Assembly: GCA_947179485.1 (NCBI GenBank) | Contig: OX359247.1 | Coordinates: 41,454,801 to 41,518,800 of the forward strand | DNA: 64,000 nt | From: Allacma fusca | Lineage: Eukaryota; Arthropoda; Collembola; Symphypleona; Sminthuridae | Direction of reading: 5' to 3' | Shown here: in pieces, positions 24,941-64,000 of the stretch | How the letters are laid out: every line of letters begins with the position of its first letter | How positions within the stretch are numbered: the stretch's first letter is position 1 | Program-made: the position numbers and the translations under genes | The notes under the pieces: generated by a model | Seen by the model: the letters and a program-made list of their open reading frames with translations, nothing else | Told to the model about the DNA's origin: nothing | Database searches by the model: none

Positions 24941-26652
24941 ATGTTAACAAAGTATGAGCTCCGGTTTAATCGTCAAGCCCTCAAAATCCTATTGCTTCTG
25001 CGTCTAATGCCTTTCGAAATGGATAAAAATGGCAGGTTGTTTTACATCAAGGGTGTCAAAGGACATTTCATTTGGAAAATTTACTACGGAATTATGTTCG
25101 TCCAAATGAATTTCATGTATTTTCGTCTCCTTCAACAATTATTTCTCACTCAAGGATGGAGTAGCCTTTTTGAAATCGTTGAACAAACTTTGTTCACTGC
25201 TTGTTTTTCCACTATGTTTCACTGGAATTCAGTGATCTATCTGAGGGAGCCATCACTACTGACCGCCATCTACAATCAAATTTCTCAAACAATTACGAAT
25301 GGTAAAGTTGATCCTTCAATTCAAAAATTTAGCGGGAAATCTTGCAGGGGGTTTACTTCAGATTTTGTACAAATATGTAATGGAAATGGGGAATACAGTA
25401 TGTAGTTCGGTTCTATTTTGTTGCAACATTTTTGCAACGCACAGACAGATTTTTTTTACAAAATTTCCTGACCTGCGGCCACATTCCTGGCCAGCAAGTG
25501 TCAAAAATATAAAGAAAATTTTCGAAAATTTTTTGCAGAAGTTTTCTAGTAAAATTTGTCCCTGATTCCTTTAAATGTTTTCTTGTGAACTAAATGTTTG
25601 AAAATGTAGTCAAGTTATATTTAGGTTTTGCCCCAAATGATCTGAAGATAATTACTTGGGTCATGGACCACTATTTTTGAGACAGCAGACAAGTTCCCTT
25701 AAAAATCGTTTTACTCAATTATTTTCTTGTAAATCGCAGGATCGTCCAAGGATTTCTCGTCTCATTGGAGGAATTACACATTGCAAGAACTTCTCATAAT
25801 TTTCCTCCCGTTTTGTGCTTTCTCTCCGTCTTTGATTTTCTACCCCATTATTTTTGTGATGAATCCTTCCGCAAAGTTTTTCTGGTTTTCTATTATCAAT
25901 CCCAATTCAAATCCTTTGCCTTTCCCCATCATAGTAGTTGCCCTTGCTGAGGGCTGCATTCCCGCCATTTTTGTTTCTGGGTCCTTGCTCGTAATATACA
26001 TGCAACTCATGTTTTTTGAAAACCTTTCGCACGCTGTGAACACCCTAGTTCCTAATTTGAGGTACGAGATATTTTCAAGATTTACATTTTATTTTTAAAA
26101 TAAATTTACCATATTTTTATTATGTACATAACTCGTAATTGGATAATTCATTTGGAAAGACACAGGGACGGGATTGGAGCTGGAGAGGAAATTATCTGTG
26201 CTATAAAAACATCCCGAAGACTCCAGCTGTCAATTCAGAATTTCAATCAAGTTTTTTCAAGCATTATTTTGACATTTAAATTAGTTGCACTCTCATGTGG
26301 GATCCTCTGCCTTTTTGTGACAATCAAAATTTACCGCACGAAGCCAATACTCGCTCTGGTTGAGTTGCTAATAGCAGCCGATACAACTATTGTATTTGTA
26401 ACGATGTACGATCGAGCATTTTCCATCCCATCCAAAATTAACAGTCTCAAGAGAGCCGTTCTTTTGGCATCCAACAAAGCGGAACATGGTGAAAATTTCC
26501 GTAGGATGATTCGTCAAACTTTAAGATCAATTCGACCCTGTGGGATTAAAGTGGGTCAGTTCCATAAGTTTGAGAGGACCTCAACTCCAAATTTTGTTAA
26601 TTTTGTGAAACGTTGTTTGCAGGGGATGTTGGTAACATTTCGTGCTATTTAA
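24941..26652 (+). CDS. GR-like 7TM chemoreceptor, copy 1 (intact, 389 aa)
   Basis: Probable membrane chemoreceptor subunit. Exons are 24,941-25,301, 25,740-26,061 and 26,166-26,652; intron phases are 1 and 2, and the joined frame is open to TAA. The start is the ATG of MLTKYELRFN, shared by most copies. Exon 1 has two hydrophobic segments, with one extra Leu in LLQQLF. Exon 2 has two more around NPSAKFFW. Exon 3 has SIQNFNQVF, TM5, TM6 and the C-terminal RPCGIKVGQF and ERTSTPNF motifs. The intron 2 acceptor (GACACAG) lacks a strong pyrimidine tract, so that boundary is the least certain. Exon 1 resembles copies 2-3, whereas intron 1 and exon 2 resemble the gene at 45,351, suggesting a mosaic. 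A GR-like identity is inferred from topology. Confidence 0.8.
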
Positions 26653-26944
26653 TTTTATTTAATTGGTTCATTGGGAGAAAAATTGGGGAGTGTGACATAC
26701 ATACATAGTTTAAACCGGAACGTAATTTTCAGGAAATCATTATTCAAACAAATGGAAAATAAATTAAAAGCTTGAAATTAACTGTTAATTTAATAACCTA
26801 ACAAAATACTCCAATTAAATGACTCATTTCAATTTTCCAGCAACAAAACACAGGCAAAATCTCAAAACACCCATAAATACAGTAGAGGTGAAGACCGAAC
26901 CGCTTTAAGACCCATTGCAATTCCGAACTCAAAAACATTTGCAC

Positions 26945-27061
26945 TTCAGTTCCAGTTACCTTCATAGTCAAAACAGTATCTGTAGACAGATCTACTTGAT
27001 ACAAATCCTTGACAAATTAACCCAACAAAGTGTTAAAACGGACTAAAAATTCTTTGCTAAA
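26945..27061 (+). promoter_or_regulatory. Promoter-proximal block, subtype 1
   Basis: It matches the block upstream of copy 1: CTTCAGTTCCAGTTACCTTC, then CAGTATCTGTAGACAGATCT and CTACTTGA, ending just before the ATG at 27,062. Confidence 0.5.
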
Positions 27062-28596
27062 ATGTTAACAAAGTACGAGCTCCGGTTTAATCGACAAGCC
27101 CTCAAAATCCTCTCGCTTCTGCATCTTATGCCTTTCAAAATGGATAAAAATGACAGGTTGTTTTACGTCAAAGGTGTTCAAAGACACTTCATTTGGAAAA
27201 TTTACTACGGAATTATGTGCGTCCATATGACTTTCATGTATTTTCGTCTCCTTCAACAATTCCTCACTCAAGGATGGAGTAGTCTTTTTGAAATCGTTGA
27301 ACAAACTTTGTTCACAGCTGCTTTTTCCACTGCGTCTTATTGGAATTCATTGATCTATCTGAGGGAGCCATTACTACTGAGCGCCATCTACAACCAAATT
27401 TCTCAAACACTTCCTAATGGTGATTTAGAAATTTAATTTAATTATTTGGCAGGGATTTACCATTCCTGACTTACCTCAATATTTTTGGTCTACATCTTTT
27501 TTATTTAGGGTAAAAAAAAACAAAGGGAAGTATATTCTTTTTAAGATATTAAGAATAATATATTTTCTAATTTATAATTCCTGGGCCAGAAGATCTTTAA
27601 TGTATACGTCAATTCATATTTTTTCGTTTCAGCATTTGACTTCAAAAATCTTTATAAATAATTATTGATAATTGCAAATTATTTCAGGATCTCCTCGGAC
27701 CTTCTCTTTTCACTGGAGCAATTACACATTGCAAGAAATACTCATCCTTTCCCTCCCTTTCTGCATTTCAACTGTGCCTTTCATAATGTACCCTTTCTTG
27801 TTTTTAATGCATCCCTCTGCAAAGTTTTTCTGGTTTTCTGTCTTCAATCCCAAATCGTATCAAGTGCCTTTCCTTATCATGTTTACTTTCATTGAGGTCT
27901 TCATTGTTTCAATTTTTGCAAGTGTTGCAATGATCCAAATGTACGTCCAACTCCTGTTTTTTGAAAAAGTCTCCTGCACTGCTAAGACTGAAGTTAATAA
28001 TTTGGGGTAAGACAAATTTTAATGTCCCAATACGTAATTTAACTAAACATTGTAACTATAATAATTACACGTATGACGGCTTACTGTAAATTTATTTCAG
28101 GAATTCCAAAGACAACAACGATTTCGAAGCAGAGATTAAAAGATTAATCAAGACACTCCGGAAACTCCAACTGTCAATTCAGAATTTCAATCAAGTATTT
28201 CCGAACGTCATACTCTCCTTCAAAATAATTGCACTCACAAGTGCCATTGCGTGCCTTTTCATGGCAATCAAAATTTACCGAACAAACCCTCTACTGGCTC
28301 TCGCAGAGTTGATAGTCGCAGCTGATGTCAATTTTCTGTTTCTGACGATCTTTGATCGGACATTTTTCATCCCTTCAGAAATTAAAAGTCTTAAGAGAGC
28401 CGTCCTTTTGTCGTCTAACAAAATACAAAATAAAAATAATTTTTACAGGATTGCTCGTCAATCATTGAGATCAGTTCGTCCCTGTGGGATCAAAGTGGGT
28501 CAGTTCCATGTGTTTGAGAGGACTTCAACCCCAAATTTTGCTAATTTTGTGAAACGATACTTGCAGGGCCTGTTGGTTACTTTTCACAGCACATGA
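27062..28596 (+). CDS. GR-like 7TM chemoreceptor, copy 2 (intact, 390 aa)
   Basis: Exons are 27,062-27,419, 27,688-28,006 and 28,101-28,596. The phase 1 and phase 2 joins restore one frame to TGA. Six clear hydrophobic segments are predicted. Motifs are HPSAKFFWFS in exon 2, and SIQNFNQVF, FDRTFFIPS, RPCGIKVGQF and ERTSTPNF in exon 3. Residues after the exon 2/3 joint (NSKDNNDFEAEIKRLIKTL) look like a charged cytoplasmic loop. The intron 1 donor is GTGATT, weaker than the GTAA-type donors of other copies; read-through would end within a few codons. It lies about 410 bp after copy 1 and is closest to copies 3 and 4 in exons 2-3. The ligand is unknown. Confidence 0.85.
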
Positions 28597-29233: not shown

Positions 29234-29544
29234 ATGTTAACAAAGTACGAGTTCTGGTTTAATAAAATTGTAAAATCCTTCGTTTCTGCATCTAATTCCT
29301 TTGGAACTGGTAAAAGATGGCAGGTGGATTTATGACAATGACGTCAGAAGAAATTGTGTGATTTATTTTTTTTCATCTCCTTAAACAATTTTTCAATCGA
29401 GGAAGGAAAACCTGCTTTAAAATAACTGAACAAATCTTTTTCACAGTTTGATTTCCAAGTTAATTTAAATTTCCACGATCGAGCATTTTCCATCCCATCC
29501 ATCGTTGTTTGCAGGGGATGTTGGTAGCTTTTCCTGCTATTTAA
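29234..29544 (+). pseudogene. Receptor-family relic: exon 1 joined to exon 3 scraps
   Basis: It starts with ATGTTAACAAAGTACGAG as in functional copies, then loses frame. Near 29,474 it jumps to the exon 3 segment CGATCGAGCATTTTCCATCC and near 29,503 to the terminal CGTTGTTTGCAGGGGATG. Large internal deletions removed all of exon 2 and most of exon 3. Non-functional. Confidence 0.75.
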
Positions 29545-29982
29545 TGTTATTTAATTGGTTAAAACGCTATCGCTTCGGCCAAAGCATAGGAATGTTCCAG
29601 TAGCGAGCAGCTTAGAACTGGACCCAGTCCTTGACATCAGGGAAAGGCTCAAAGTGCTACATCGCAGTTTTTGTTAATTACTACAGAGAGGGTCCTAATG
29701 TTTGGAAAGGTTCGACCTTTCCAAGATTTGCAATTACTATTGTTTGTTTAATCCTTTGGACGAGGACAATTTTTTTAAAATTGTAAGCAAATTTACATAC
29801 TTAAGATATAAGGATCTGGTGAGATTCTGAAACTATACAACTGGAGCTAATTCCAATTTTTATTAAATAATTCCTGTGCAAATGAGTATCTACTGAATAA
29901 TTAAAAGATCACGTTGTGAAATTCATATTTAATGTAACGTGTGAGAAAATTTTATTTCCATTTTGCAGCTTCTTCTTCTTTT

Positions 29983-30116
29983 CAGCTGCATTTGAAATTT
30001 CCTTCAAAACTGGAACACTTACATTTGTGATTCTCGACTTTTGTGTGCCAATCAAATTCTTCCGGACGAATCCAGAACTAGCTTTTTTTGGAGATCCTAA
30101 TATCAACGGTTCTTAA
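29983..30116 (+). pseudogene. Receptor-family relic: TM5 region of exon 3
   Basis: The segment GTGCCAATCAAATTCTTCCG with GACGAATCCAGAACTAGC matches the TM5/TM6 part of exon 3 (AIKIFRTNPILAL in functional copies), then ends. The surrounding DNA resembles 39,920-40,120. Confidence 0.5.
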
Positions 30117-30119
30117 TTT

Positions 30120-31442
30120 TGTTTTTATAACATTCTACGATAAAGCAAAAAAGTTTCATGGGTGACTTCAACCTGGGACCGACACGTTATCAGCACGAAA
30201 AACCCAACTGGTACTGTCAAATACATCCCACAATTCTCTTTAAAATTTGTGTCGCTGTTTGTTGATGGCTAATGGCCAGAGTGACTAATTTCATTGCCTT
30301 TTAAGGTCAAAATAAGCAACAGTATTTCTTTTCCAGTATTCTTTCCCAAAAAACTGTTACTCCGTTCAAACACAGGAAGGGCTAAATGTCATAGCAATTG
30401 TATTTTCCTTAAATTACTTGAGTTTCCCGGCTCTCCATGGTGATTCGAGCCTTCCATGTTGTTTAGTATCTCTGAGTTAATAACGTTCTATTTTCAGATT
30501 TAATGGACCAGTGGACAAATCATACAAAAATTTCCATATACAAATAAACAGGAAACCGTATTCAACTCGATGTAAACATGTGTTAATTAACGGGATAATT
30601 ATTATTATTGCTGGAGAAGTAATTCGATTTTAATTTAAACGTCCGCAAGACGTAACCGCTTTAAGACTCATTAAAGTAAAAACTACAAAATATTTGCTTT
30701 TCAGTTCCAGATACCTTTAGATCTAAAACAGTATCGGTAGACGGATCTACTTGAGTCAATTCCCTTAAAAATTACAGCACTAATTTAACACAAGCCAAGC
30801 ATTCATATAACAGAAAGTAAGCAGATTTCTTCTCTTTCCACATCAACGTCATCTTCAACCCTCTCCATTCCCAGACATCCAATAATTAACCTTCAGTTCC
30901 TTATTTACTCTATCACAATTGAGTATTTTTAGTGAGAAGGTCATTGGGAGAAAAATAGCTCAGAAATACGGAAAAAATATACTTACGCAATAGTAAATAA
31001 CAATTTATCTAAATAAGGTATAACAGAGTTTAAACCGGAATGTAATTTTCAAAAAATTATTATTCAAACGAATCGAAAATAAATTCAAAGCTTGAAATTA
31101 ACGGTAAGTTTAATAACCTAACGAAATACTCCAATTTTGAGTTTGCATTGAAATTAAAATAACTTTTGGTCAATAATGCAAACTAATATTACATTTCCGC
31201 AAATTAAATGACTCATTACAATTTTCCAGCAATAACACACCGGCAAAATTTCAAAACCCTCATAAATACAGAACAGATTTTACAAGCTTTAAGACCCATT
31301 GCAAGTCAGAACTCAAAAACATTTGCACTTCAGTCTCAGTTACCTTCATATTCAAAAACATCTGTAGGCAGATCTGCTTGAGACAATAACTTGACAAATT
31401 AACCAAAAAAACTGTAAAACGGACTCAAAATTCTTTGCTAAA
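30120..31442 (+). other. Duplicated flanks with one orphan promoter block
   Basis: About 30,473-30,780 continues the flank seen at 23,883-24,190 and ends in a subtype 1 block (30,700-30,762) with no gene. A second copy of the flank starts at about 30,789 and leads to the block at 31,330 before the next gene. No other gene seen. Confidence 0.55.
31330..31442 (+). promoter_or_regulatory. Promoter-proximal block, subtype 1
   Basis: CTTCAGTCTCAGTTACCTTC and CATCTGTAGGCAGATCTGCT correspond base for base to the blocks upstream of copies 1 and 2. Confidence 0.5.
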
Positions 31443-32930
31443 ATGCTAACAAAGTACGAGCTCCGGTTTAATCGTCAAGCCCTCAGAATCCTTTCCCTTC
31501 TGCATCTAATTCCTTTCGAAATGGATAAAAATGGCAGGTTGTTTTACATCAAGGGTGTGAAAGGACATTTCATTTGGAAAATTTACTACGGAATTATGTG
31601 CGTGCAAATGAATTTCATGTATTTTCGTCTCCTTCAACAATTTTACACTCAAGGATGGAATAGTCTCTTTGAAATCGTTGAACAAACTTTGTTCACTGCT
31701 TGTTTTTCCACTGCGTTTCATTGGAATACAGTGATATATCTGAGGGAGCCATCACTAGTGACCGCCATCTACAACGAAATTTATCAAACACTTCCTGATG
31801 GTGATATACAAATTTAATTTAATTATTTTTTGGGTGGGTTTTACCCTTCCTGACTTCTCTCAATATTTCTGGTCTGCAGGGCAAGGGGCAAAAAAGCAAG
31901 GAAAAGTATATTCTGTTTATTATTTGAGAAATAAATAATTTCCCTATTTTGCATTCCTGGGCCAGAAGACATTTTATGTATGTCAATTGTCTTCAGAATA
32001 TTTTGAATTGATAATTGTAATTATTACTGCAGGATCTCCCCGGACTTTCTCTTTTCACTGGAGGAATTACACTTTGCAAGAATTACTCATCCTTTCCCTT
32101 CTTTTCTGCGTTTCTGCTGCGGCTTTCGTAATATACCCTTTAATCTTTTTGTTACATCCCTCTGCAAAGTTTTTCTGGTTTTCTGTCCTGAATCTCAATT
32201 CGTTCCAAGTACCTTTCCTAATCATATTTACTTTCATTGAGGTCTGCATTGCTTCAATTTTTGCAGTTATGACAATGTTACAAATTTACATCCAACTCCT
32301 GTTTTTCGAAAAAGTCTCCCACACTGTCAAGAGTGAAGTTAAGAAATTGGAGTAAGACAATTTGTAATATATCAATCCTTAATTTGTCTCAACGTTATAA
32401 CACTGTATCACAGCTTAATGTAAATTTATTTCAGGAAGTCCAAAGACAGCAACGATTTCGTAGCAGAGATTAAAAGAATTATTAAGACACTCCGAGAACT
32501 CCAACTGTCCATTCAAAATTTCAATAAAGTGTTTCCAAGCATCATATTATCCTTCAAAATAATTGCACTCGCAAGTGCCATTGCATGCCTTTTCATGGCA
32601 ATCAAAATTTACCGGACAAACCCTCTACTGGCTCTCGGAGAATTAATAGTAGCAGTTGATATAAATTTTATATTTCTAACGCTCTTTGATCGGACATTTT
32701 TCATCCCGTCAGAAATTAAAAGCCTCAAGAGAGCCATTTTATTGGCATCCAACAAAATACGAAATAAAGAAAAATTTTGCAAGATTATTACGCAATCATT
32801 GAGATCAAGTCGTCCCTGTGGGATCAAAGTGGGTCAGTTCCATGAGTTTGAGAGGACTTCAACCCCAAATTTTGCTAATTTTGTGAAACGAAACTTGCAG
32901 GGGCTGTTGGTTAGTTTTCCCACTAATTGA
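31443..32930 (+). CDS. GR-like 7TM chemoreceptor, copy 3 (intact, 390 aa; reference copy)
   Basis: Exons are 31,443-31,800, 32,033-32,351 and 32,435-32,930. Hydrophobic segments lie near residues 43-66, 74-100, 136-160, 180-210, 260-283 and 289-310, with a weaker C-terminal one at 370-387. Motifs: PSAKFFW 162-168, SIQNF 251-255, DRTFFIPS 311-318, RPCGIKVGQF 352-361, ERTSTPNF 365-372. The N-terminus (1-42) has no signal peptide, as expected for a GR/OR-type topology with an internal N-terminus. The C-terminal pattern (Arg-Pro, then a Gly-x-Phe segment, then a final helix) resembles the TM6-TM7 hinge of the insect chemoreceptor superfamily, but the classic TYhhhhhQF motif is absent. Donor 1 is GTGATA. 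Closest relative in the window: copy 4. Confidence 0.87.
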
Positions 32931-33551: not shown

Positions 33552-33896
33552 ATATTAACAAAGTATGAGCTTCGATTTAATCTACAAAATCCTATCCCTC
33601 TTGCATATCATTCCTTTTGAATTGGATGAGGATGAGATTTTTAGATATCGAAAGGATTTCAAAGGAAATACTATTTGAAAACTTTCCTACGCAGCTGTTG
33701 GGATTTATGTAATCTTCCTTTTTGTCGACTCCTTCGGCAAATTTCCTAAGAAATTAATCTTTTTTGAAATTTTGGAACAATTCTATTTCGTATAGTGCTT
33801 TTGTCACTGTGTGTTATTGGAATTCAGTGATATTCCTGGCCGTGCTTATTCTGGTGACTCTCATCTTGATCTAAATCTCTCAAGGAATGACGGATG
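33552..33896 (+). pseudogene. Receptor-family relic: exon 1
   Basis: Full-length exon 1 homology, but the start is ATA instead of ATG (ATATTAACAAAGTATGAG) and the frame is broken (for example ATTTGAAAACTT near 33,676). A donor-like GGTAAA remains at the end. No exon 2 or 3 follows within 1.1 kb. Confidence 0.75.
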
Positions 33897-35033: not shown

Positions 35034-36535
35034 ATGTTAACAAAGCACGAGCTTCGGTTTAATCGTAAAGCCTTAAGAATTCTCTCGCTCCTGCATCTAA
35101 TGCCTTTCGAAATGGATAAAGATGGCAGGTTGTTTTACGTCAAGGGTGTCAAAGGACATTTCATTTGGAAAATTTACTTCGGAATTATGTGCGTCCAAAT
35201 GAATTTTCTGAATTTTCGTCTCCTTCAACAATTCCTCAATGGAGGGTGGAATAGTCTCTTTGAAATCGTCGAACAAACATTTTTCACAGCGTGTTTTTGT
35301 ACTGCATTTTACTGGACAACATTGATGTTCCTGGTTGAGCCATCTCTTTTGATAGCCATCTACAACGAAATTTCTCAAACATTTCCTGATGGTGAATTTA
35401 GAAATTTAATTTGATTATTTCGTAGGGATTTACCCTTCCTGACATACCTCAATATGTTTGGTTTACATGGCACGGGTCAAAATAAAAGAGCCAAAAGTAT
35501 TTTCTTTTCAAGATATCACAAATAAATTATTTCCCCAATTTATCATCCCTGAATTTGATGTAGGTCAATATTAGGTATTTTCGTTTCCGTAGACATCTGT
35601 CGTCAGAAAGGTTTTTAAATGCAAATTGTAATCGCAGGATCTTCCCGGACTTTCTCTTTTCACTGCAGGAATTACACATTGCAAGAAATACTCATCCTTT
35701 CCCTCCCTTTCTGCGTTTCCACCGTGACTTTCGTAGTGTACCCTTTGTTGTTTTTATTACATCCCTCTGCAAAGTTTTTCTGGTTTTCTGTCTTCAATCC
35801 CAATTCATATCAAGTACCTTTCCTTCTCATATTTACTTTAATTGAGGTCTGCCTTATTTCAATTTTTGCAAGTGTGACAATGTTACAAATTTACACCAAA
35901 CTCCTATTTTTCGAAAAGGTCTCCCACACTGTCAAGAGTGAAGTAAAGAAATTGAAGTAAGACAATTTGTAATCTATCAATCCTTAACTTGTCCCGACGT
36001 TGTAACATTGCATGACGGCGTATTGTAAACTTATTTCAGGAATTCCAAAGACAGCCACGATTTCGAAGCAGAGATTAAAAGATTAATCAAGACACTCCGA
36101 GAGCTCCAACTGTCAATTCAGAATTTCAACCAAATATTTCCAAATGTCATTCTCTCCTTCAAAATAATTGCACTCACAAGTGCCATTACATGCCTTTTCA
36201 TGGCAATCAAAATTTACCGAACAAACCCTCTACTGGCTCTTGGAGAGGTAATAGTAGCAGTTTATATCAATTTTATCTTTCTAACGCTCTTTGATCGGAC
36301 ATTTTTCATCCCGTCAGGAATTAAAAGCCTCAAGAGAGCCATTCTATTAGCATCCAACAAAATACGAAATATAGAAAAGTGTCACAAGATTATTAGGCAA
36401 TCATTGAGATCAAGTCGTCCTTGTGGGATCAAAGTGGGTCAGTTCCATGAGTTTGAGAGGACTTCAACCCCAAATTTTGCTAATTTTGTGAAACGATACT
36501 TGCAGGGTCTGTTGGTCACTTTTTCTACCAGTTGA
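35034..36535 (+). CDS. GR-like 7TM chemoreceptor, copy 4 (intact, 390 aa)
   Basis: Exons are 35,034-35,391, 35,638-35,956 and 36,040-36,535; phases 1 and 2. It starts MLTKHELRFN. It differs from its neighbours by Cys for Trp in the exon 2 HWRNYTLQE motif (HCRN) and by Tyr for Ala or Asp in the TM6 region (AVYINFIF). Its C-terminus (SSRPCGIKVGQF, HEFERTSTPNFANF) is almost identical to copy 3, indicating recent duplication or conversion. Donor 1 is GTGAAT; acceptor 1 is TAATCGCAG, shared with most copies. The 5' flank differs from subtype 1, so regulation may differ from copies 1-3. Role inferred as above. Confidence 0.85.
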
Positions 36536-37451: not shown

Positions 37452-38852
37452 ATGTTAACAAAGTACGAGCTCCGGTTCAATAGTAAAACGATAAGAATAC
37501 TCTCACTTTTGCATATAATGCCTTTCGAAATGGATACAGATGACAGGTTGTTTTACGTCAAGGGTTTCAAAAGAAATTTCATTTGGAAAATTTACTATGG
37601 AATTATGTGCGCCCATTTAAATTTCATGTATTTTCGTCTCCTTCAACAATTCTACACTCAAGGATGGAATAGTCTCTTTGAAATCGTTGAGCAAATATTT
37701 TTCACAGCTTGTTTTTCCACTGGGTTTTACTGGAATTCAGTGATTTATCTGCGCGAGCCGTCACTACTGACCGCCATCTTTAACCAAACTTTTCAAACAA
37801 TTCTAGATGGTAAATTTTAGAAATTGCATTTAATTATTTTGTGGGATTTGACTCTACCATTACTTAGCTCAGGCTACCTAGTATCATAAAAGGGAAGGGA
37901 ATTTTTTGAAGCTATGGAATACATTTTTTAAAATTCTAACAAATTTTTTTGAAATATGAATCGCAGGTTCTGCCCAGATATTCTATTCTCGTTGGAAGAA
38001 TTACACATTGCAAGAAGTGCTCATCCTTTCCTTACCTTTCTGCGTTTCCACCGTGGGTTTCGTAATGTACCCTTTATTGTTTTTAATGCATCCCTCTGCA
38101 AAGTTTTTCTGGTTTTCTGTCTTTAATCCCAATTCGTACCAAGTTCCTTTCCTTATCATATTTGCTGTCATTGAAGTCTTCATTGTTTCGATTTTTACAA
38201 GTGTGACAATTATCCAAATGTACGCCCAACTCTTGTTTTTCGAAAAAGTCTCCCACACTTTTAAGGACGAAGTTAAGAAATTGGGGTAGGACTGTTTTTA
38301 ATATTTATCTCAAAGTGTATTTTGACTAAATGTTGTAACGTATGCATGGTAGATGTTTAATGTATATTTTTTTCAGGAAATCCAAAGACAGCAACGATTT
38401 CGAAGCAGAGATTAAAAGAATAATCAAGACACTCCGAGAGCTCCAACTGTCAATTCAGAATTTCAACCAAATATTTCCAAATGTCATTCTCTCCTTCAAA
38501 ATAATTGCACTCACATGTGGCAATCAAAATTTACCGAACAAATCCTCTACTAGCTCTCGCAGAGTTGATAATAGCAAATGATGTCACTTTTACCTTCCTA
38601 GCGCTCTATGATCGGACATTTTTCATCCCTTCAGGAATTAAAAGCCTCAAGAGAGCCGCCCTTTTGTCATCCAACAAAATACAAAATAAAGAAAAATTTC
38701 ACAAGCTTATTAGGCAATCATTGAGATCAATTCGTCCTTGTGGGATCAAAGTGGGTCAGTTCCATGAGTTTGAGAGGAGTTCAACCCCAAATTTTGCAAA
38801 TTTTGTGAAACGATACTTGCAGGGGCTGCTGGTCACTTTTCGTACGAGTTGA
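37452..38852 (+). pseudogene. GR-like chemoreceptor with a 20-bp deletion in exon 3
   Basis: Exon 1 (37,452-37,809) and exon 2 (37,967-38,285) are intact, with normal length and splice sites. Exon 3 (38,377-38,852) is 476 bp instead of 496. Between CACTCACA and TGGCAATC near 38,511-38,521 there are 2 bases where copies 3 and 4 have 22. The deletion shifts the frame inside TM5 and stops the protein at about 38,579. Downstream of it the old frame is open and well conserved through ERSSTPNF to the normal stop, so the break is recent or the copy is polymorphic. I prefer the ATG at 37,452 (MLTKYELRFN) to upstream in-frame TTG codons. Confidence 0.8.
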
Positions 38853-39046: not shown

Positions 39047-39577
39047 GAATTCCAAATAATTACAGCAATACACTCAAACTTGAAATTCTTAGAGGATTCA
39101 AGAGACTACGAAAACTGCAATTGTCAATTCAGAATTTCGATCATTTTTGGTTAAAAATCATACAGTTAAGATACTTGCACTCACCTTTGGTATTCTCTGT
39201 CTTTTCGTGCCAATCAAAAAATATTCGGAACGATTCCTATAATTACTTGCTTTGGTGGAGTTGCTAAGAGCAGCTGATATTAATATTGCATTTTTGATAA
39301 CCCATGACGGAGTATTTTTGAGCCCACTTAGAATCAAAAACCTCAAGAAAGGCGTGCTTTTGGCATCCAATAAAATACAAAATAAAGAAAAATTTATACA
39401 AAATAAAGAATGAGCAGAAATGCTCACAAATTATTCCGTCAAACAGTGAGGTCAATTCGTTACTGTGGAATCAAAGTGGGTCAGTTTCATATGTTTGTCA
39501 GGACCTCAACCCCAAATTTTTTAAACTTTGTCAAACGTTGTTTGCAGGAGATGTTTCTAGCTTTTCGTGGTATTTGA
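39047..39577 (+). pseudogene. Receptor-family relic: exon 3 only
   Basis: It is preceded by an intact-looking acceptor (GATTTCAG). The text follows exon 3 from NSK through TM5, TM6, a decayed RYCGIKVGQF and VRTSTPNF to the final TGA, but several indels and a duplicated AAATACAAAATAAAGAA-type segment near 39,373-39,410 break the frame. No exon 1 or 2 belongs to it. Confidence 0.75.
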
Positions 39578-47373: not shown

Positions 47374-47728
47374 ATGTTAACGAAGAATGAACTGCGATTC
47401 AACCGGAAATCTGTTAGGATCTTATCCTTCTTCCATATAATTCCCTTCGAACTGTGTGACGACGAGATTTTGATTTATACTAAGGGTTCTAAACAAAATT
47501 CAATTTGGAAAATTTACTACTCATTCATGTGCCTTCAAATAATATTCGTTTCTTTCGAATCCTTCAACAAATTTACATGGGGAAATGGAACTTGCTTAAA
47601 AGGGTTGAACAAGTTTATTTCTCATGGAGTTTGTTCACATCATTTTACTAAACTTCAGTCCTGTTTCTGGTTGAGCCATCTCTTTTCCTCGATATCTTGG
47701 ACCAAATTTCTCGAAACCTTACGGAAGC
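47374..47728 (+). pseudogene. Receptor-family relic: exon 1 only
   Basis: It begins with a good ATG (MLTKNELRFNRKS) and is open to about residue 62. A 1-bp loss near 47,554 then shifts the frame, and the old frame also has TAA where others have TGG (TTTTACTAAACTTCAG near 47,646). No exon 2 or 3 follows. It most resembles exon 1 of 55,833 and 61,474. Confidence 0.75.
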
Positions 47729-48572: not shown

Positions 48573-49988
48573 ATGTTGACCAAATATGAACTGGGATCTT
48601 ATCGCAAAACCTTTCAAATCCTCTCCGTCATACGTCTAATTCCTTTTGAATTGAACAAATATGATCGGCTGATTTACATAAAAGGTTCAAAACGAAACTC
48701 AATTTGGAAAATTTTCTACACAATTACAGCCATTCATGTAATTTTCGTGTCTGTTCGACTCCTTCAACAATTGTACACTCGAGAATGGAACAACATCTTT
48801 GAGATTACACAACAAATATACTTCACCGCTGCGTTCTTCATCATGTTTCATTGGAGCTCTGTCCTATTTCTGATTGAGCCAACTCTTGTGACTGGTATCT
48901 CGAACCAAATTTCGGAAAAAATTCCCGAGGGTATGCTTAAAATAATTGTAATAATTAAACCATTTATTTTTGCTTAAAAATGATTTCTCACCCTTGAAGC
49001 GATAATATGGAATTTGGGAAAGGAAAATTACGTCAAAGACCAGAATTATTAAGGATCTAAAAATATGATCGCAGGTTCATCCCGGGATTTATTTTCCCAC
49101 TGGAGGAATTACACAATGCGGGAGATAATCATAATTTGCATCCCTTCTGGCTTAGCTATAGGGATTTTGATTATCTACCCGGGTATTTTTTTGATGAATC
49201 CCTCAGCAAAGTTTTTCTGGTATTCTGCTGTCAATCCCATCTGGAGCCATAAATCCTCACTTGTCATATTTTATTTCGTTGAAGCCTGCATTCTTTCGAT
49301 ATTTGCTGCTGGGCCAATCCTGTCAGAATACATACAGATCATGTTTTTCGAAAATATATCTTACACCCTCAAGACCGAGATTGGCAAATTTGGGTACGTC
49401 GGATTTGTATTTGGTAATCTTTTATGACTGCGAAAATATTTTAAACTTAAAACTTTTAAGCTAAACGAAACGTTCAATTGATCAAATTTCAGGAGTTACA
49501 ACAACAGCAACACTTCCAAAGCTGAGATTGTTAGAGGTATGAAAACTCTTCGAGAACTACAACTGTCAATTCAGAATTTTAATCAAGTATTTTCAAGTGT
49601 TACATGGACATTTAAAATCCTTGGACTCACACTTGCGATTCTCTGCCTCTTTGTGGCAATACAAATATTCCGAAGATACCCAATCCTAGCTCTCGCTGGA
49701 TTGTGTATAGCAGTTGATGCTAATACCATATTTTTGATCCTTTACGATCGAGCCTTTTCCATCCCATCAAAAATTAACAGTCTCAAGAAAGCCGTTCTTC
49801 TCTCATCAAACAAAATACCCGAGAGAGAAATTTTTCAGAGGATGATTCGTCAATCAGTGCGATCAGTTCGTCCATGTGGGATCAAAGTGGGTCAGTTCCA
49901 TTTGTTTGAGAGGACTTCAACCCCCAATTTTGTGAATTTTGTGAAACGTTGTTTACAAGGATTGCTCGTTACCTTTCGTTCTCTTTAA
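48573..49988 (+). CDS. GR-like 7TM chemoreceptor, copy 8 (intact, 390 aa)
   Basis: Exons are 48,573-48,930, 49,075-49,393 and 49,493-49,988; phases 1 and 2. It is more divergent at the N-terminus (MLTKYELGSYRKTFQILSVI) than copies 1-7 and has PIWSHKS in place of PNSNQVP in the loop before TM4. Exon 3 has the third subgroup's wording (ILYDRAFSIPSKINSLKKAV), also seen in copy 1, then RPCGIKVGQF, HLFERTSTPNF and FRSL. Donor 1 is GTATGC and donor 2 GTACGT. The protein has six strong hydrophobic segments and no signal peptide. Upstream DNA is shared with a stranded promoter at about 34,200. Confidence 0.85.
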
Positions 49989-50949: not shown

Positions 50950-52371
50950 ATGCTATCGAAAAATGAGCTCGGATTTAATCGTAAGACCTTCAAAATTTTG
51001 TCGGTCCTGCGAGTGATTCCCTTTGACGTGGATAAAAACGAGAAGCTAATCTTCCGTCAAAGTTTGAAAGATAATTTAATTTGGAAAGTTTACTACCTCA
51101 TTATGTTTTCCCATATAACGTTCCTTGTTGTTCGGCTCCTTCAACAATTTTACACTCAAGGATGGAACAGCATGTTTGAAATAGTGGAACAAATCTTTTT
51201 CACAGCCAGTTTCTTAATAGCATTTTACTGGAACTCTCACTTATCCCTGGTGGAGCCAACTCTTCTGGTCGCCGTCTTTAACCAAATTTCTCAAACAATT
51301 CCGAAAGGTATGCTTTAAAAGATATTAGTGATTTTGGGTTTCAGGAAACTCTCAGGTACTTTTGTTTGGTGATCCTTGGATGGAAGGTTAGAAAGGAATT
51401 TCCAGGATTTTTCATGGAAGAAAATATCAATCGGAAATTATGCTTCGTAGGTTGTTCCCAGGATTTCTGGTCGCATTGGAGAAATTGGAGGAATTATACT
51501 TTGCAAGAGATACTCATCATTTTCCTCCCGTTTTGTTTTTTTTCTGTGACTTTGATTTTCTACCCAATGATTTTTTTAATGAATCCCTCCAGAAAATTTT
51601 TCTGGTATTCTATTTTCAATCCTAATTCAAACAAACTGTATTTTCTTATATTATTTTCATTTGCTGAAGCCTTCATTCCTTCGATCGTAAGTGCTTTGCC
51701 CCTGCTCGCAGTTTATGTTCAACTTCTGTTTTTTGAAAACGTCTCCCACACTGTCAGGACCACAGTTGGGGCTCTAATGAGGAGTAAGGACGGGAAATTT
51801 ATGGTAAGGGATATTTGTTTTGTGTGAGAAATTTTGTGGCAAACATTTGCCCATAAATTTTAATTTGGAGTTTCTAAAGGTTAGGGACAGCATTACACCA
51901 GAAAGGGAAATTATCGACGCCATCAAAACTTGCCGAGTACTCCAGCTATCAATTCAGAATTTCAATCAAGTTTTTTCAAGCTTCATATTAACTTTCAAAA
52001 TATTTTCACTCACAGCGGGGATTCTCTGTATTTTCCTCGCCATTAAAATATACAGAACGAATCCAGTACTAGCCCTGGTGGAGTTAGTGATAGCAATTGA
52101 TATAATTTTTGTTTTCCTTACACTGTACGATCAAGCCTTTTTCATCCCATCTAGAATTAAAAATCTGAAGAAAGCCTTGCTCTTAGCGTTCCATCAAATT
52201 CACAACAGAGAAAATTTCCAGAGGGGGGTTCGTCAAATTGTGAGATCAATTCGTCCTATTGGGATCCAAGTGGGTCAGTTCCATGTGTTTGAGAGGACGT
52301 CAACGCCCAATTTTGTTAATTTCGTCAAACGAAACTTGCAGGGGCTATTAGTCACTTTTCGTTCCATTTGA
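50950..52371 (+). CDS. GR-like 7TM chemoreceptor, copy 9 (intact, 400 aa; shifted intron 2)
   Basis: Exons are 50,950-51,307, 51,451-51,803 and 51,880-52,371. Intron 1 is phase 1 as usual, but intron 2 is phase 0 (donor ATG|GTAAGG, acceptor TAAAG|GTT). Exon 2 therefore ends in an extra LMRSKDGKFM-like tail absent from phase 2 copies. Exon 2 also has a 9-bp tandem duplication giving WRNWRN (51,477-51,494). The start MLSKNELGFN is chosen because it aligns with other copies; the open frame extends 37 codons upstream, including possible ATGs, so a longer N-terminus is possible. The C-terminal motif is RPIGIQVGQF, with Ile for the otherwise constant Cys. It pairs with the gene at 58,128. Confidence 0.8.
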
Positions 52372-53769: not shown

Positions 53770-55210
53770 ATGCTCACAAAAAGTGAACTTCGATTCAATC
53801 GTAAAACCTTCAAAATCTTGTCGCTCCTTCATCAAATTCCTTTCAAATTGGATCCAAATGATATGCTAATTTACCGACAGGGTTTTAAACAAAATTCCAT
53901 TTGGAAATGTTACTATTTAATTATGTGCGTCCATATGACATTTCATGTCGTTCGACTCCTCCAACAATTTTACACTCAAGAATGGAACAGTTTGTTTGAA
54001 ATAGTTGAGCATATCATTTTCACAGCTTGTTTCTTAGTAACATTCTACTGGACCTCAGTAATATTCCTGGTCGAGCCATTTCTTTTGACTGCCATCTTTA
54101 ATCAAATTTCTCAAACAATTACAGACGGTATGGTTTAAATTTGTTCTTCAACGGCATGGTTTTAAAATATTCTTTAACAAAACCTGATTTAATTCAGTCA
54201 TTTCCCCTGGGGTTCGAAAAATCTTAGTTACCCTAATTCACAAACAATTTTAGCTCAACAGGAAGAAAATCTCTTGAATGAATAATAACAAGAATGTAAA
54301 CATTTGAATCCCAGGTTCTTCCCAGGATTTCTTTTCTCAATGGAGGAATTATTCAAAGCAAGAGCTACTCATCACTTTCCTCCCATTTTGCATTTACAAT
54401 GCAACCTTAATTTTTTATCCCATCATTTTTTGGATAAATCCTTCAGGAAAATTTTTCTGGTTTTCTATTTTCAATTATTCTAATTCAAACCAATTCCCTT
54501 TCCTTATATTATTTGTACTGGCTGAAGCCTGGATTTTTTCCGTTTTTGTGGTTGGGGCAATGGTTACAATTTACATACAACTCTTGTTCTTTGAACAAGT
54601 CTCTCACACTGTCCGGACAGAAGTTGGGAATTTGCGGTAGTAACAATTTATTTAACAATCTTTAACTTTACGGACCTTGGTTTCAGCTGATGATCGTTAA
54701 ATTAATTTCAGTAATTTCAAATATAGTAATAATACATCCGAAGCTGTGATTGAGAGAGGAATTTGTACACTCCGAGAACTGCAATTGTCACTTCAGAATT
54801 TTAATCAAGTATTCTCAAGCATCACTTTAACATTCAAAATGATTGCACTCACAACTGGGATTCTCTGTCTTTTCGTGGCAATTAAAATCTTCCGAACGAA
54901 CCCAATACTGGCTCTTGCTGAATTGATAATAGCTACGGATGTAAATATTATTTTTCTAACTCTCTACGACCGAGCCTTTTTCATCCCATCAAGAATTAAA
55001 AACCTCAAAATAGCCATTATTTTGGCATCTAAAAAAATACCCGATAAAGGAAATTTTCACAGGAGGGTGAGTCAAACTTTAAGGTCAATTCGTCCATGTG
55101 GGATCAAAGTGGGTCAGTTCCATGTGTTTGAGAGGACTTCAACCCCAAATTTTGTCAATTTCGTAAAGCGCAGCTTGCAGGGGCTTCTGGTCTCATTTGG
55201 TGCCGTTTGA
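53770..55210 (+). CDS. GR-like 7TM chemoreceptor, copy 10 (intact, 392 aa)
   Basis: Exons are 53,770-54,127, 54,315-54,636 and 54,712-55,210; phases 1 and 2. Exon 2 has one extra codon (FNYSNSNQF where others have PNSNQ), and the motif is NPSGKFFWFS with Gly for Ala. TM3 contains an unusual Trp (IIFWINPSG). Exon 3 starts NFKYSNNTSEAVIERG and keeps LQLSLQNFNQVF, LYDRAFFIPS, RPCGIKVGQF and ERTSTPNFVNF. Donor 2 is GTAGTA, weaker than GTAAGA. It lies about 1.4 kb after copy 9. Exon 3 encodes a Met-rich TM5 start (TFKMIALTTGILCLFV) similar to 55,833. Confidence 0.84.
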
Positions 55211-55832: not shown

Positions 55833-57188
55833 ATGCTCACGAAGAATGAGCTGGGATATATCCGTCAAACCCTTAAAATCTTCTCGTCCCTGCGTCTAAT
55901 TCCTTTGGATATTGATAAAGACGAGGCTTTAATTTATCGCAAGGGTTTCAAAGGAAAATATATTTGGAACATTTACTACTCAATTATGACTCTTCATTTA
56001 TTATTTCTTCAGACCAGACTCCTTCAACGAATTTACTCGAATGAATGGAACTTGTTTGAAATAGTTGAGCAGGTTTATTTCACGGCTGGTTTCTTCACTG
56101 CATTTTACTGCACTTCAGTCCTATTTCTGATTGAGCCATCTCTATCCCCTGCTATCTTAAACCAAATTTCTCAAAATCTTTCGGAAGGTAGAGTATTCTA
56201 TTTAACTATTTTCTCAGTTTAATGAATACAATTTAGGGATACGATTTTGTGGAAAATATGCAATTTTATTACAAAACGGTTGCAATTTAAATCATACTAG
56301 GATCGTCCAAGGATTTCTCATCTCATTGGAAACACTACACGATGCAAGAGCTCCTCATCATTTTCCTCCCTTTTAGTGGTTACACTGTAGCTTTGCTTTT
56401 CTACCCAATTATTTTCTTGTTGAAACCCTCCGCGAAATTCTTTTGGTATTCTATTATCAATCCCAATTCAAACCATATGCCGTTGCTCAGCATATTTTGC
56501 TTGACTGAAGTCTGCATTCTATCAATCTTTACTGCTGGCCCGATCCTGTCAATCTACCTTCAACTCCTGTTTTTTGAAAATGTGTCTCATACCGTAAAAA
56601 CCGAAGTTACGAATTTGGGGTTAGTCATACTTCTATCTTCTAATTTGTAATTTAATGATGTCTTTTGTGAGTTCTAAATTGTCAAATTGCAGAAATTTTA
56701 AAGAATATATAACCCACGAGACTGAGATTACTAGAGGGATCAAAAGACTTCGAGGACTACAACTTTCTATTCAGAATTTCAATGAAGTATTCTCAAATAT
56801 GATATTGACATTCAAAATGGTAGCACTCACAGTTGCCATTCTCTGTTTATTCGTCGCTGTAAAAATTTTCCGGAGTAACCCAATACTAGCTTTTGTAGAA
56901 TTGCTCATATCGGCTGATGTAAATATTATATTTCTAACGCTGTATGATCGAGCCTTCTTCATCCCATCTAGAATTAATAGTCTCCGGAAAGCCGTCCTTC
57001 TCTCATCAAACAAAATACCGGAGAGAGAAAAATTTCAGAGGATGGTTCGACAAGTAGTGAGGTCAATTCGTCCGTGTGGGATCAAAGTGGGTCAGTTTCA
57101 TTTGTTTGAGAGGACTTCAACGCCCAATTTCGTCAATTTTGTTAAAAGAAGTTTACAGGGCTTATTGGTTACTTTTCGGGCTATTTGA
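55833..57188 (+). CDS. GR-like 7TM chemoreceptor, copy 11 (intact, 389 aa)
   Basis: Exons are 55,833-56,187, 56,301-56,619 and 56,693-57,188. Exon 1 is one codon shorter (SNEWNLFEIVEQ lacks the Ser of WNSLFEI), a feature shared with the relic at 47,374 and the broken gene at 61,474. Exon 2 has HWKHYTMQELLII and KPSAKFFWYS (Lys for Asn or His). Donor 2 is GTTAGT; acceptor 2 is AATTGCAG. Exon 3 carries LQLSIQNFNEVF, RSNPILAF, LYDRAFFIPS, RPCGIKVGQF and HLFERTSTPNF. A long T tract sits immediately before the ATG, so the leader or promoter may be altered. Confidence 0.84.
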
Positions 57189-58127: not shown

Positions 58128-59563
58128 ATGCTAACCAAAAGTGAACTTTGCTTTAACCGTCAAACCTTCGGAATCTTGTCGTTCTTGCGTCTAATTCCCT
58201 TCAAATTGGACAAAAATGAGAGGTTTATTTACCGCAAGGGCTTCAAACATAATGTAATTTGGATTTTGTACTACGTAATTATGTGCATTCATATGATATT
58301 CCTCGTTGTTCGACTCTTTCAACAATTGTACACTCAAGAATGGAACAGCATGTTGGAAATAGTTGAACAAATTTTTTTCACAGGATGTTTCTTAATAGCA
58401 TTTTACTGGACCTCATTGTTGTTCCTGGTAGAGCCATCTCTTGTGGCCTCCATCTTTAACCAAATTTACCAAAATATTACGCTCGGTATGCTGAAAAATT
58501 TAATTACACTATGTTGAGTACTTTCCCACACTTCTGGGAACGGAATTATTCTAATTTTAATTCATTGAAACCAATTTTTAACAATTTGTGGGGAAATTAC
58601 CAACCCAAAAAATTGTAAATTATACCAAAGTGACAAATATGAATTGCAGGTTCCTGCCGGAGATTCTTTTCTGTTTGGAGGAATTACACGATTCAAGAGC
58701 TCCTCATCATTTTCCTCCCGTTTTGCATTTACACCTCGACTTTGATTTTCTACCCAATTATTTTTTTAATAAATCCCTCAGCTAAATTTTTCTGGTATTC
58801 TGTTTTCAAACCCAATTCAATTCAATTCCCTTTCCTGATCCTATTCGCCCTTGCTGAGGGATGTATTTTTTCAATTATTGCCTCTGGGGCAATCCTTGGA
58901 AATTACGTTCAACTCCTCTTTTTTGAAAATGTGACTCACACTATGAGGACCGCAGTTGCGACTGTAATGCAGGGTAAAGATGGAATTGAGGTAAGGGACA
59001 TTTTTTGTGGCAGTATTTCAATTTATGATAATTATTGCCTCGAATTTTAATATGAGAATGGCATTTCAAAGTCAATGGGCAGTATTGCATTGGAGGCTGA
59101 GATTACCGGAGCAATCAAAACTTGCCGAATACTCCAGCTGTCAATTCAGAATTTTAATCAGGCCTTCTCAAACTTTATATTGACCTTCAAAATTGTGGCA
59201 CTCACAGCGGCAATCCTCTGCCTTTTCATGGCGATCAAAATTTACAGGAAGAATCCAATGATGGCTCTTGTTGTATTGCTAATGTCGGCAGACATAAACG
59301 TTTGTTTCCTCACACTCTATGACCAGGCCTTTTTCATCCCATCCAGAATAACCGGGCTCAAGAAAGCCATTCTTCTGCTGTCCAACCAAACACAGAGAGG
59401 AGCAAATTTCCAGAAGATGGTTCATCAAACAATGAGATCAATTCGTCCTTGTGGTATCAAAGTGGGTCAGTTCCATGTGTTTGAAAGGACGTCGACGCCC
59501 AATTTTGTGAATTTCGTCAAACGAAACTTGCAGGGGCTATTAGTCACTTTTCGTTCCATTTGA
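58128..59563 (+). CDS. GR-like 7TM chemoreceptor, copy 12 (intact, 396 aa; shifted intron 2)
   Basis: Exons are 58,128-58,485, 58,650-58,990 and 59,072-59,563. Intron 2 is phase 0 (donor GAG|GTAAGG, acceptor CAAAG|TCA), giving an exon 2 tail VMQGKDGIE. A remnant of the usual donor (GGGTAAAG, 58,973-58,980) lies inside this tail, so the splice site appears to have moved downstream. Exon 2 has VWRNYTIQELLII and NPSAKFFWYS; exon 3 has LQLSIQNFNQAF, LYDQAFFIPS, RPCGIKVGQF and ERTSTPNF. Asp-Gln replaces Asp-Arg after TM6, as in copy 9. The ATG at 58,128 matches other copies; the upstream open frame begins only with GTG. Confidence 0.82.
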
Positions 59564-60631: not shown

Positions 60632-60865
60632 ATGCTAACCAGAACTGAACTTTGCTTTAACAGTCAAACCTTCAGAATGTTGTCGGTCTTGCGTCTAATT
60701 CCCTATGAAATGGACAAAAACGAGAGGTTCATTTACCACAAGGGCCTCAAACAAAATTTATTTTCGATTTTGTACTATACAATATTGTGCATTCATATGA
60801 TATTCCTCATTATTCGACTCCTTCAATAATTTTACACTCAAGGATTGAACTTGTTTGAAACATCC
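60632..60865 (+). pseudogene. Truncated receptor copy: 5' two thirds of exon 1
   Basis: It opens with MLTRTELCFNSQTFRMLSVL, closest to the gene at 58,128. In LLQQF the second Gln codon is TAA (near 60,826). Homology stops at about 60,865 after CTTGTTTGAAA, with no further exon. Its 490-bp upstream region is duplicated too, so this was a tandem duplication of promoter plus gene that later lost its 3' part. Confidence 0.8.
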
Positions 60866-61473
60866 ATATAATTACGTTAAATTAAATTTATTTTGCTGCA
60901 ACTCTGAATGTAACATTAGAAAGTCGTAACAGAAACTATAAATTCACAAAGCCAATCAACGTATTAGCCAGAAAAAAATTTAACGTTGTAGACTGAAACA
61001 GGAAGCATTCAAAATCCCGCAAGTAACTTTTGAACACGTTCGCGAGCTACATGAAAATTGGAGAATTGGCTTGCATGAAGTAGGAAAGAGATATTTTTAC
61101 GAAATAATGATCGAACAAATAAAAGTGAAATAAATAAGTCAAGAAATACGTTAATTGCTTCCCTTGTTATTCCGCTGATGGAGTAATGGCCAGATCAAAT
61201 TTCTTTTATAACAAGGATATATTAAATCCTGTCAATGACACTTTTGATGATGTTTTTCATATATACATGCATTACATACATTACATTTACACAAAAATTA
61301 TGACAGCAAAATCAGCCCTGGAATACCCTGGCAAATAGGGCACAACACCGCACATTCTTGTTCCAGGAGCCAATTGAATAAAAACAATTTACAAATTTTC
61401 AGAGAATAATATTTTAACAGGATTAATAAAATTGACCACTGAAGCCCTCCTAAAACACATACAATTGGAAGCT
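60866..61473 (+). other. Intergenic
   Basis: About 61,085-61,135 resembles the AAATAATCACTGTACAAAT block found upstream of 47,374 and 55,833. An ACATACATTACATT run lies at about 61,270. No gene. Confidence 0.4.
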
Positions 61474-62003
61474 ATGCTAACGAGGAATGAACTACGATTC
61501 AACCGCAAAACCCTTAAAATCTTCTCTCTCTTACGTCAAATCCCCTTCGAATTTGATAAAGACCAGAATTTGATTTATCGCAAGGATTTAAAACAAAAAT
61601 TGATTTGGAAAATTTACTATGGAATTATTTTCATTCATGTAATATTTCCTTTTGCCCGACTCCTTCAGCAAATTTACTGGGAAAAATTGAATTTATTTGA
61701 AACAGTTGAACAAGTCTACGTCACTGCTAGTTTTCTCACTGCATTTACCTGGACATCAGATATATTTCTTGTGGAGCCGTCTCTGTTCGCTGGGATCATA
61801 ACCAAACTTCCCAAACAATTAAGGAAGGTAAGAATAAATTTAGACATTTTTACGCGGCTACAATTTACGACTTACGAATCAAGCCCTGTCGTGGAGACTT
61901 GGAGACTTATTGTATTACGCGTTTATTTTAAGAGTAGCGAGCGGTGCTTTAAATAATCGGACAAAAAGAAATGTCTTTTAAAAAAATTCCTTATTACAAT
62001 ATA

Positions 62004-62031
62004 CTAGTAAAAGCCCCGTGCTTCGCACAGG
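62004..62031 (-). mobile_element. Helitron-like 3' terminus (minus orientation) in intron 1
   Basis: On the + strand A|CTAG (62,003-62,007), then TAAAAG, then CCCCGTGC TTC GCACAGG (62,014-62,031). On the minus strand this reads hairpin, short spacer, CTAG, T, the known Helitron 3' end layout, and a GTGCGAAGCAC stem is a familiar form. About 100 bp on, CCCGCTTCGCC (about 62,129) is another GC-rich motif. No TC 5' end or Rep/helicase was recognised; probably a non-autonomous remnant. Confidence 0.5.
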
Positions 62032-62382
62032 AGCAATTACTTGTGTAAATAAATAGTGTAAATAATAAAAGTGTAAATGGCAATAAATCTCGTATCAAGG
62101 TCTGTCGAGAAGGATTAATATTGATATCCCGCTTCGCCAGGCAAAGTAATCTAATATAAGACGTGAAGTATTAACTGCAAGACTAACAATTTCATATAGG
62201 TAGTTGGCAATTCATCATCAAAATATTATGGAACAGCTTCCGGCCCACTAAAGTTTTTTCCCAAACTCAATATTGACTATACACGTGGAATTTAACTAAT
62301 CGCTTGATCAGTTTAATACCAACGTCGTTATTAAATCTTGCTGTTGCATCACTGTATGGTGCTTCACTCCTTATTGTTAGTG

Positions 62383-62403
62383 GATCAGCACACCGTGCTG
62401 ATC
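62383..62403. repeat. Perfect 9-bp stem hairpin
   Basis: GATCAGCAC, ACC, GTGCTGATC: exact reverse complements around three bases, inside the enlarged intron 1. Confidence 0.7.
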
Positions 62404-62863
62404 AAATATGATTTTTTATGTTATTATAATTTGTATACAGATCCGTTGTACCGCAATATTGTAACTAAAGCCTGAGACACTGGACGCACTGATTATTTAA
62501 AATGAAAGGATTTCATATTAGCGCAACACATTTAACTTGCTATAGTTACTAAAGTCCATGGTTCCTACAAATCCATCTTACATCCTAATGATATTTTTAG
62601 GGATATAAAGATCAAGACTCTGAATGCTAAGGCTTGTAATTATTCTTCCTAATAAGAATCCCACACTAATGTGAACTAAGTTCAGTCATTAAAATTCTCC
62701 TCTTATCAAATTATTCAGTAATGTAACCGAACGTAGTTTTTATCACTACCAGTCTTAATTTAATCCAAATTTGATGATTTATGTCTAATGTTTATAATAA
62801 TTATGGTTAGCGCTGTTAAGTGATAATCTAAAATGGCGTAATATTGCGAGCTTCCAGTATCCT

Positions 62864-62989
62864 GCAAGCAGTTGGTATATGCCGAGAAGAACAGCGAGCT
62901 GAGCGAGCTGAAAAACCTCTCCACTGCGACAGAGTTTTAGCTTTCAGCCCGCTATGCTTCTCGGCTTGTTGTATATACCACCGACTTGC
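62864..62989. repeat. Foldback (long inverted repeat)
   Basis: The left arm starts GCAAGCAGTTGGTATATGCC and continues through GAGAAG and the GAGCGAGCTGAAAAACCTCT segment. The right arm carries AGAGTTTTAGC, TTTCAGCCCGCT, CTTCTCGGC and TATATACCACCGACTTGC. The arms are complementary with small gaps around a loop of about 10 bp near 62,921. The sequence to 63,085 then has three copies of a GCGAAGGTTTGAATT-like motif. Possibly a MITE or part of the inserted element. Confidence 0.6.
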
Positions 62990-64000
62990 TTGGCTGTATA
63001 GTAAATCAGCCGGGAGGGTTTGAATTCGTGAAATAAGCCGCGAAGGTTTGAATTGTACTACAAACGCGCGAAGGTTTAAATCAACAGAAGTGCTCAATAA
63101 TAATAAAGGATGTACATATTAGGGTCGTCCAAGGATCTCTCTTCTCATGGGAGGAATTACACGATCCAAGAGATCCTAATAATTTTCCTCCCTTTCTGTG
63201 CATTTGCTGCAACTGTGGTCTTTCACCCAATTTTCTTTTTGATGAAACCCTCCTCAAAGTTTTTCTTGTTTTCAATTGTACGCCACAATTCAAACCAATT
63301 CCCGTTCCTGATAATATTTGCAATTGCTGAGGGCTCCATTGCTTCTATTTGTGTTGTCGCGTCGACCGTGGGAATTTACATCCAACTCTTGTTTTTCGAA
63401 AACATTTCTCATATTGTTACGGCCGATGTGAGGAATTTGGGGTAAGACAATATATTGTTTTATATTTTGTACTTGTACTCGTAGTCCATCCTTATTCGTA
63501 AAATTTCAGGATTCCTAAAACCAAGAATGCATCCGAGGCTGGGGTTATCAAAGGAATCAAATCACTCCGAGAGCTGCAGTTGTCAATTCAGAATTTCAAT
63601 CAAGTATTTTCAAACTTTATATTAACATTCAAAATAGCGTCACTCACAATCGGCATCCTATGCCTTTTCTTGGCTATCAAAATTTTCCGGACGAACCCAG
63701 TAATAGCTCTAGTTGAGTTGCTAGTTGCAGCCGATATAAACATTGTATTTCTGACGATGTACGATCGAGCGTTTTTCATCCCATCGAAAATTAAAAGTCT
63801 CAAGAAAGCCGTGCTTTTATCATCCAATAAAATACAAAAAAGGTAAAATTTTCAGAGGATGGTTCGGCAAACATTGAGGTCAGTTCGTCCTTGTGGGATC
63901 AAAGTGGGTCAGTTCCATGTGTTCGAGAGGACGTCTACCCCAAATTTTGTGAATTTCTTGAAACGTACCTTGCAGGGGATGTTAGTAATTCTTCGCTTCG

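Follow-up and report, generated by a model that had tools for sequence, protein, structure and literature searches.

A tandem array of three-exon membrane-protein genes in the springtail Allacma fusca belongs to a large, possibly chemosensory superfamily

We investigated a 64,000-nucleotide stretch of the genome of the springtail Allacma fusca (hereafter the window; G000:C10:41454801-41518800, in a genome of 393 Mb and 91 contigs), which carries a head-to-tail array of membrane-protein genes that an earlier note had read as a chemoreceptor expansion. A tblastn search that used exons 1-3 of unit 53770 as queries (units are named by their first window position) located 13 three-exon units between positions 24941 and 63987, all on the + strand. 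Eleven of them are intact and encode proteins of 389-400 amino acids (aa) under GT/AG splice models; the other two, 37452 and 61474, are broken. When all 11 intact units supplied the exon queries (E<=1e-5), 55 merged exon-level matches were obtained on the + strand and none on the - strand. Eight exon-level relics, grouped in about six places, lie between the units. The exons of unit 53770 gave no match at E<=1e-3 in 20 three-base-block shuffles of the window, ruling out chance open frames. These searches, splice models and shuffles confirm the single-stranded array of 11 complete copies, two broken copies and relics described in the earlier note, and its count of at least eight relics agrees with the eight that we located.

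All features lie on the + strand, and exons are given in the order 1, 2, 3. The first intact units of the array are 24941-26652 (389 aa; exons 24941-25301, 25740-26061, 26166-26652) and 27062-28596 (390 aa; 27062-27419, 27688-28006, 28101-28596). Relic matches to exon 1 (29234-29460) and exon 3 (29997-30147) occupy 29234-30147, followed by unit 31443-32930 (390 aa; 31443-31800, 32033-32351, 32435-32930), an exon 1 relic at 33552-33801 and unit 35034-36535 (390 aa; 35034-35391, 35638-35956, 36040-36535). The broken unit 37452-38849 retains exon 1 (37452-37808), exon 2 (37966-38283) and an exon 3 split between two frames (38375-38521, 38517-38849), and behind it an exon 3 relic lies in three pieces at 39058-39574. 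Unit 40831-42350 (390 aa; 40831-41188, 41453-41771, 41855-42350) is followed at 44225-44810 by an exon 2 relic (44225-44395) and an exon 3 relic (44694-44810), next by unit 45351-46891 (390 aa; 45351-45708, 46004-46322, 46396-46891) and an exon 1 relic in two pieces at 47374-47726. Five intact units then stand in succession: 48573-49988 (390 aa; 48573-48930, 49075-49393, 49493-49988), 50950-52371 (400 aa; 50950-51307, 51451-51803, 51880-52371), 53770-55210 (392 aa; 53770-54127, 54315-54636, 54712-55210; also supported by tblastn), 55833-57188 (389 aa; 55833-56187, 56301-56619, 56693-57188) and 58128-59563 (396 aa; 58128-58485, 58650-58990, 59072-59563). An exon 1 relic at 60632-60850 precedes the broken unit 61474-63996 (61474-61827, 63122-63439, 63529-63996), whose intron 1 is long (about 1.3 kb). 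The exon-intron layout was said to be shared by all copies. This holds for intron 1, which is in phase 1 in 11/11 intact units, and not throughout for intron 2, which is in phase 2 in nine and in phase 0 in the other two, 50950 and 58128. In these two units the phase-0 intron (51804-51879 and 58991-59071) goes with a longer exon 2; the same boundary shift occurs in L040_2004 and L056_982, which the tree places in one group with them.

The array extends about 26 kb beyond the window, to a total of about 65 kb and 21 units. The flank after the window holds eight additional three-exon units, up to about C10:41,544 kb, of which five are intact by automatic models and two are not; one spans a border between retrieved segments, the models covering the other seven. 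The final 10 kb of the retrieved flank (L042) gave no match at E<=1e-4. The whole window has no Rfam match at gathering scores and no tRNA, and no inverted repeat of >=40 lies within the array.

The intact copies are 53-83% identical in pairs, and their differences of 17-47% rule out assembly duplicates. Their alignment has 403 columns, 101 of them invariant, and includes a conserved C-terminal block, GI[KR]VG-F-H--ER--TP-[FY]. The ratio of nonsynonymous to synonymous substitution rates (Nei-Gojobori, own script, 55 pairs) has a median of 0.30 and a range of 0.23-0.51. The intact copies are under purifying selection, and the genes are therefore kept as proteins. Units 35034 and 45351 have close partners (starred branches in the tree) 2.2 Mb away in a cluster at C10:39.12-39.29 Mb (L043-L045), which also holds a close partner of unit 31443 (an open fork) and exons close to those of unit 24941. 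Since close partners of several array members sit together there, this suggests a segmental copy of part of the array. The tandem expansion put forward in the earlier note is thus well supported by identities, relics, paralogous cluster and selection alike.

By sequence comparison, the array is one cluster, and one branch, of a much bigger superfamily, which numbers at least 321 distinct places in the genome that reach into the C-terminal part of these proteins. Four queries were used, and for each 105-147 of 1,084-1,501 first-look candidates were scored, so that all place counts are lower bounds. Unit 53770 gave at least 155 exon-level matches (105 of 1375 candidates scored), and successively more distant queries reached members at 21-40% identity. 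The listed places are distributed over C1 (153), C8 (101), C10 (59), C12 (7) and C60 (1); 207 have a neighbour within 30 kb, and 114 stand alone. Exons 2 and 3 are fused in a single open frame in some members, such as L067 and L068. Residues F35, S71, G80 and R87 (first-row numbering) are invariant across 14 chosen diverse members. At G000:C10:46099421-46117712, six equal-scoring superfamily exons are spaced about 3,571 bases apart, which points to a very young tandem array; a comparable spacing, 3,095 bases, is seen at C1:57575960-57585694.

Hydropathy analysis places six clear helices at the same positions in 26 of 29 full-length proteins. With six segments, the loops on the N-terminal side contain on average 31.5 lysines and arginines, versus 5.2 on the other side, and the N-terminal side has more in 28/29. 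When seven segments were forced, only 10/29 proteins came out with the N-terminus inside, because the weak seventh helix was missed by the count; the same count gave N-inside for 4/4 gustatory receptors (GRs) of the same genome. A cytosolic N-terminus is thus a well-supported prediction from the six-segment charge bias. Seven helices are not, since the seventh is weakly hydrophobic, and a seventh membrane helix can be proposed only weakly: of the earlier description as seven-transmembrane-like, six helices stand and the seventh is insecure. A canonical G-protein-coupled receptor (GPCR) would fit the length of about 390 aa and a possible seventh helix; the N-inside charge pattern speaks against it, as does Pfam, where the 11 proteins match no GPCR family, and we reject this assignment as highly improbable.

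We put at about even chances the reading that these proteins form a superfamily of divergent, GR-like chemoreceptor channels. Chemoreceptor loci typically hold large tandem families that turn over quickly and leave many relics, and the birth and death of copies in this array with its relics favours this reading. The proteins resemble GRs (7tm_7) in length, in predicted N-inside topology, in their tandem arrays and in a short similarity to same-genome GRs at the entry to transmembrane helix 7 (TM7); they differ in lacking a Pfam 7tm_7 match and the TYhhhhhQF motif and in the weakness of the last helix. With insect odorant receptors (ORs) and Orco (7tm_6) they share the array habit and the N-inside topology, here a prediction; unlike these, the 11 proteins have no 7tm_6 match, for which we rejected the OR family. 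A 7tm_6 search of the genome also found nothing, as it did in 14 non-insect control genomes, so that this search had no working positive control. A further parallel may be the fly Grl proteins, described in PMC9998090 as GR-sized membrane proteins with scant sequence similarity to GRs and as possible chemoreceptors. On the reading as GR-like channels, the members would be ligand-gated channels of several subunits, as GRs and ORs are; the later helices would extend far into the cytosol and there form the assembly domain, the last helix would line the pore, and divergence from GRs would be too great for Pfam detection.

The TM7-entry similarity between the family and own-genome GRs (PCGIKVGQFHVFER / PLGISPWQFFKLDR) ranks first among 162,864 ungapped 14-column diagonals against a membrane-protein background, the 14-column length having been chosen after the match was seen; it lies equally far from the end of either profile. 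Unprompted, hhalign picks the same register. We take this similarity as a hint only. In the own-genome GR L001 the end reads PLAISPWQFFRLDRRLLTT, then a phase-0 intron (by eye), then MFASMTTYLIILIQF; unit 53770, for the window family, has PCGIKVGQFHVFERTSTPNFVNFVKRSLQGLLVSF.

Several results weigh against GR-like channels, and we gather them here. Firstly, profile searches were negative: at E<=10 the 11 proteins have no Pfam match to 7tm_6, 7tm_7 or Trehalose_recp, which is the check that the earlier note had proposed, and none of nine relatives (L053, L067-L074) matches 7tm_7. As a positive control, L001 matches 7tm_7 at 2.1e-21. The superfamily C-terminal profile retrieved four chance matches and no GR from the PDB sequences; the control, an own-GR tail, retrieved nine GR/OR sequences. 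Secondly, the GR hallmarks are missing. The TM7 motif of GRs is TYhhhhhQF, and GRs generally, not universally, have a phase-0 intron just ahead of the TM7 exon, according to PMC9998090. Own-genome GRs L001, L003 and L005 carry TTYL[IV]ILIQF and, by eye, this intron. The motif is absent from the C-terminus of the 11 intact proteins, which have ends like KRSLQGLLVSF, and in 11/11 the last exon runs uninterrupted from before TM5 to the stop. With profile match, motif and intron each lacking, these tests do not support membership of the GR family. Thirdly, the last helix is weak: over the best 15 residues near the C-terminus, hydropathy averages 0.79, against 1.67-1.74 in own-genome GRs. Fourthly, the TM7-entry match is fragile: its diagonal falls to ranks 20-187 in windows of 20-34 columns, where the best 34-column match joins non-corresponding helices, and is not among the best under the standard background. 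Run with reversed and shuffled profiles as controls, hhalign gave a non-significant E of 0.22 for whole profiles and of 0.12 for C-terminal profiles, a score reached by 17 of 200 block shuffles. Finally, structure models gave a divided answer. Both model 1 (unit 48573, both introns being multiples of three) and model 2 (exons 2-3 of unit 58128) are of low confidence (pLDDT 61 and 62, pTM 0.41). Model 1 has long helices at 227-277 and 312-366, which favours GR-like channels, and a C-terminal helix at 439-467. Its top Foldseek match is Drosophila Gr43a, non-significant (E 0.54, TM-scores 0.27 and 0.31), which is one of two entries with more than 270 aligned residues in VIA-align, the other being a designed protein; MhOr5 stands at rank 28 (E 3.5). 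For model 2, no GR or OR is among the 50 entries listed. A chemoreceptor identity is only suggested: the hints of GR kinship are the short TM7-entry similarity and Gr43a as the top, non-significant match, and profile matches were obtained in 0/11.

No other family gives a confident match in Pfam, NCBIfam or the PDB sequences, and the outcomes that the earlier note named as refuting were not seen. In Pfam, 12 families appear at E<=10, each in one of the 11 proteins (best E 0.033), and the search of PDB sequences with the 11 proteins gave nothing at E<=10. NCBIfam SseG matches four of the 11 (best E 0.0063), and in Pfam, relative L068 has a match to BTP (E 0.00014; 22.2 bits, under the cut-off of 25.6); both are bacterial models, and we take them as probable membrane-helix coincidences. 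Among the papers listed in searches of the open PMC literature, none describes such a family in its title or the opening of its abstract, subscription papers lying mostly outside that scope. The gene family is real, selected and tandemly expanding, and it is absent from the libraries searched.

The same comparisons bear on a different history, in which this superfamily of receptors or channels arose independently of GRs; its members would be N-inside, have six helices and carry the conserved block in a basic C-terminal domain on the cytosolic side, and would perhaps be convergently sensory. With 111 of 238 candidates scored, the genome holds at least 53 7tm_7 GR places, 52 of them above the Pfam cut-off, and no superfamily place lies within 1.2 kb of those listed; a GR query retrieves six GR places only, from nine candidates. 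Along with the six clear helices and the non-significance of every sequence test against GRs, this fits a separate origin; the GR-like N-inside topology, length and array habit, the TM7-entry similarity to own-genome GRs and the place of Gr43a at the head of the Foldseek list do not, and we regard such an origin as possible though somewhat doubtful. Among those listed, a superfamily exon and a 7tm_7 GR come within 10 kb of each other in a single case (C1:33898207 and C1:33900977). A non-sensory, lineage-specific role, such as a gut, immune or reproductive membrane function, GR-derived or not, would agree with the sequence signals around the genes, none of which stands out: the best upstream 8-mer is common to 6/13 units, as shuffles also reach 6, and poly(A) signals occur near 5/11 units against 0.31 of random places, close to background. 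Big, fast-turnover tandem families rich in relics are, by general knowledge, typical of receptors for outside chemicals, and we consider a non-sensory role unlikely.

Studies of springtails and diplurans report no ORs in the species examined (PMC6080948, PMC5644144), at least 18 GRs are reported for one springtail (PMC5644144) and springtail GRs are described as only partly annotated (PMC6938034). If the superfamily is sensory, searches based on the GR profile and the TM7 motif undercount the chemoreceptor repertoire. Superfamily places outnumber recognised GR places as listed (at least 321 versus at least 53), and 1,084-1,501 first-look candidates per superfamily query, versus nine for the GR query, would bring the total perhaps near a thousand. 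More tentatively, then, this may be a second great superfamily of chemoreceptors, unlisted in family databases and marked by a C-terminal signature of its own, GI[KR]VG-F-H--ER--TP; it could serve smell in animals without ORs. The last helix carries a basic residue in most aligned members, and if this proposal is true the residue would imply a pore or assembly unlike those of GRs and ORs; if sensory, the superfamily would also offer a large natural series for probing the limits of divergence of the GR/OR channel plan.

Left of the array, at window positions 2632-22833, lie about a dozen minisatellite fields with periods of 11, 12, 17, 18, 30, 33 and 34 bases, nearly all containing the short word TCAAGT/ACTTGA. 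Elsewhere in the genome, copies of COX1 that are nearly full-length and contain TGA codons occur on large contigs besides C91 (L064-L066; G000:C12:58139742, C12:57617062, C5:4638854, C8:22971501) and are perhaps mitochondrial inserts.

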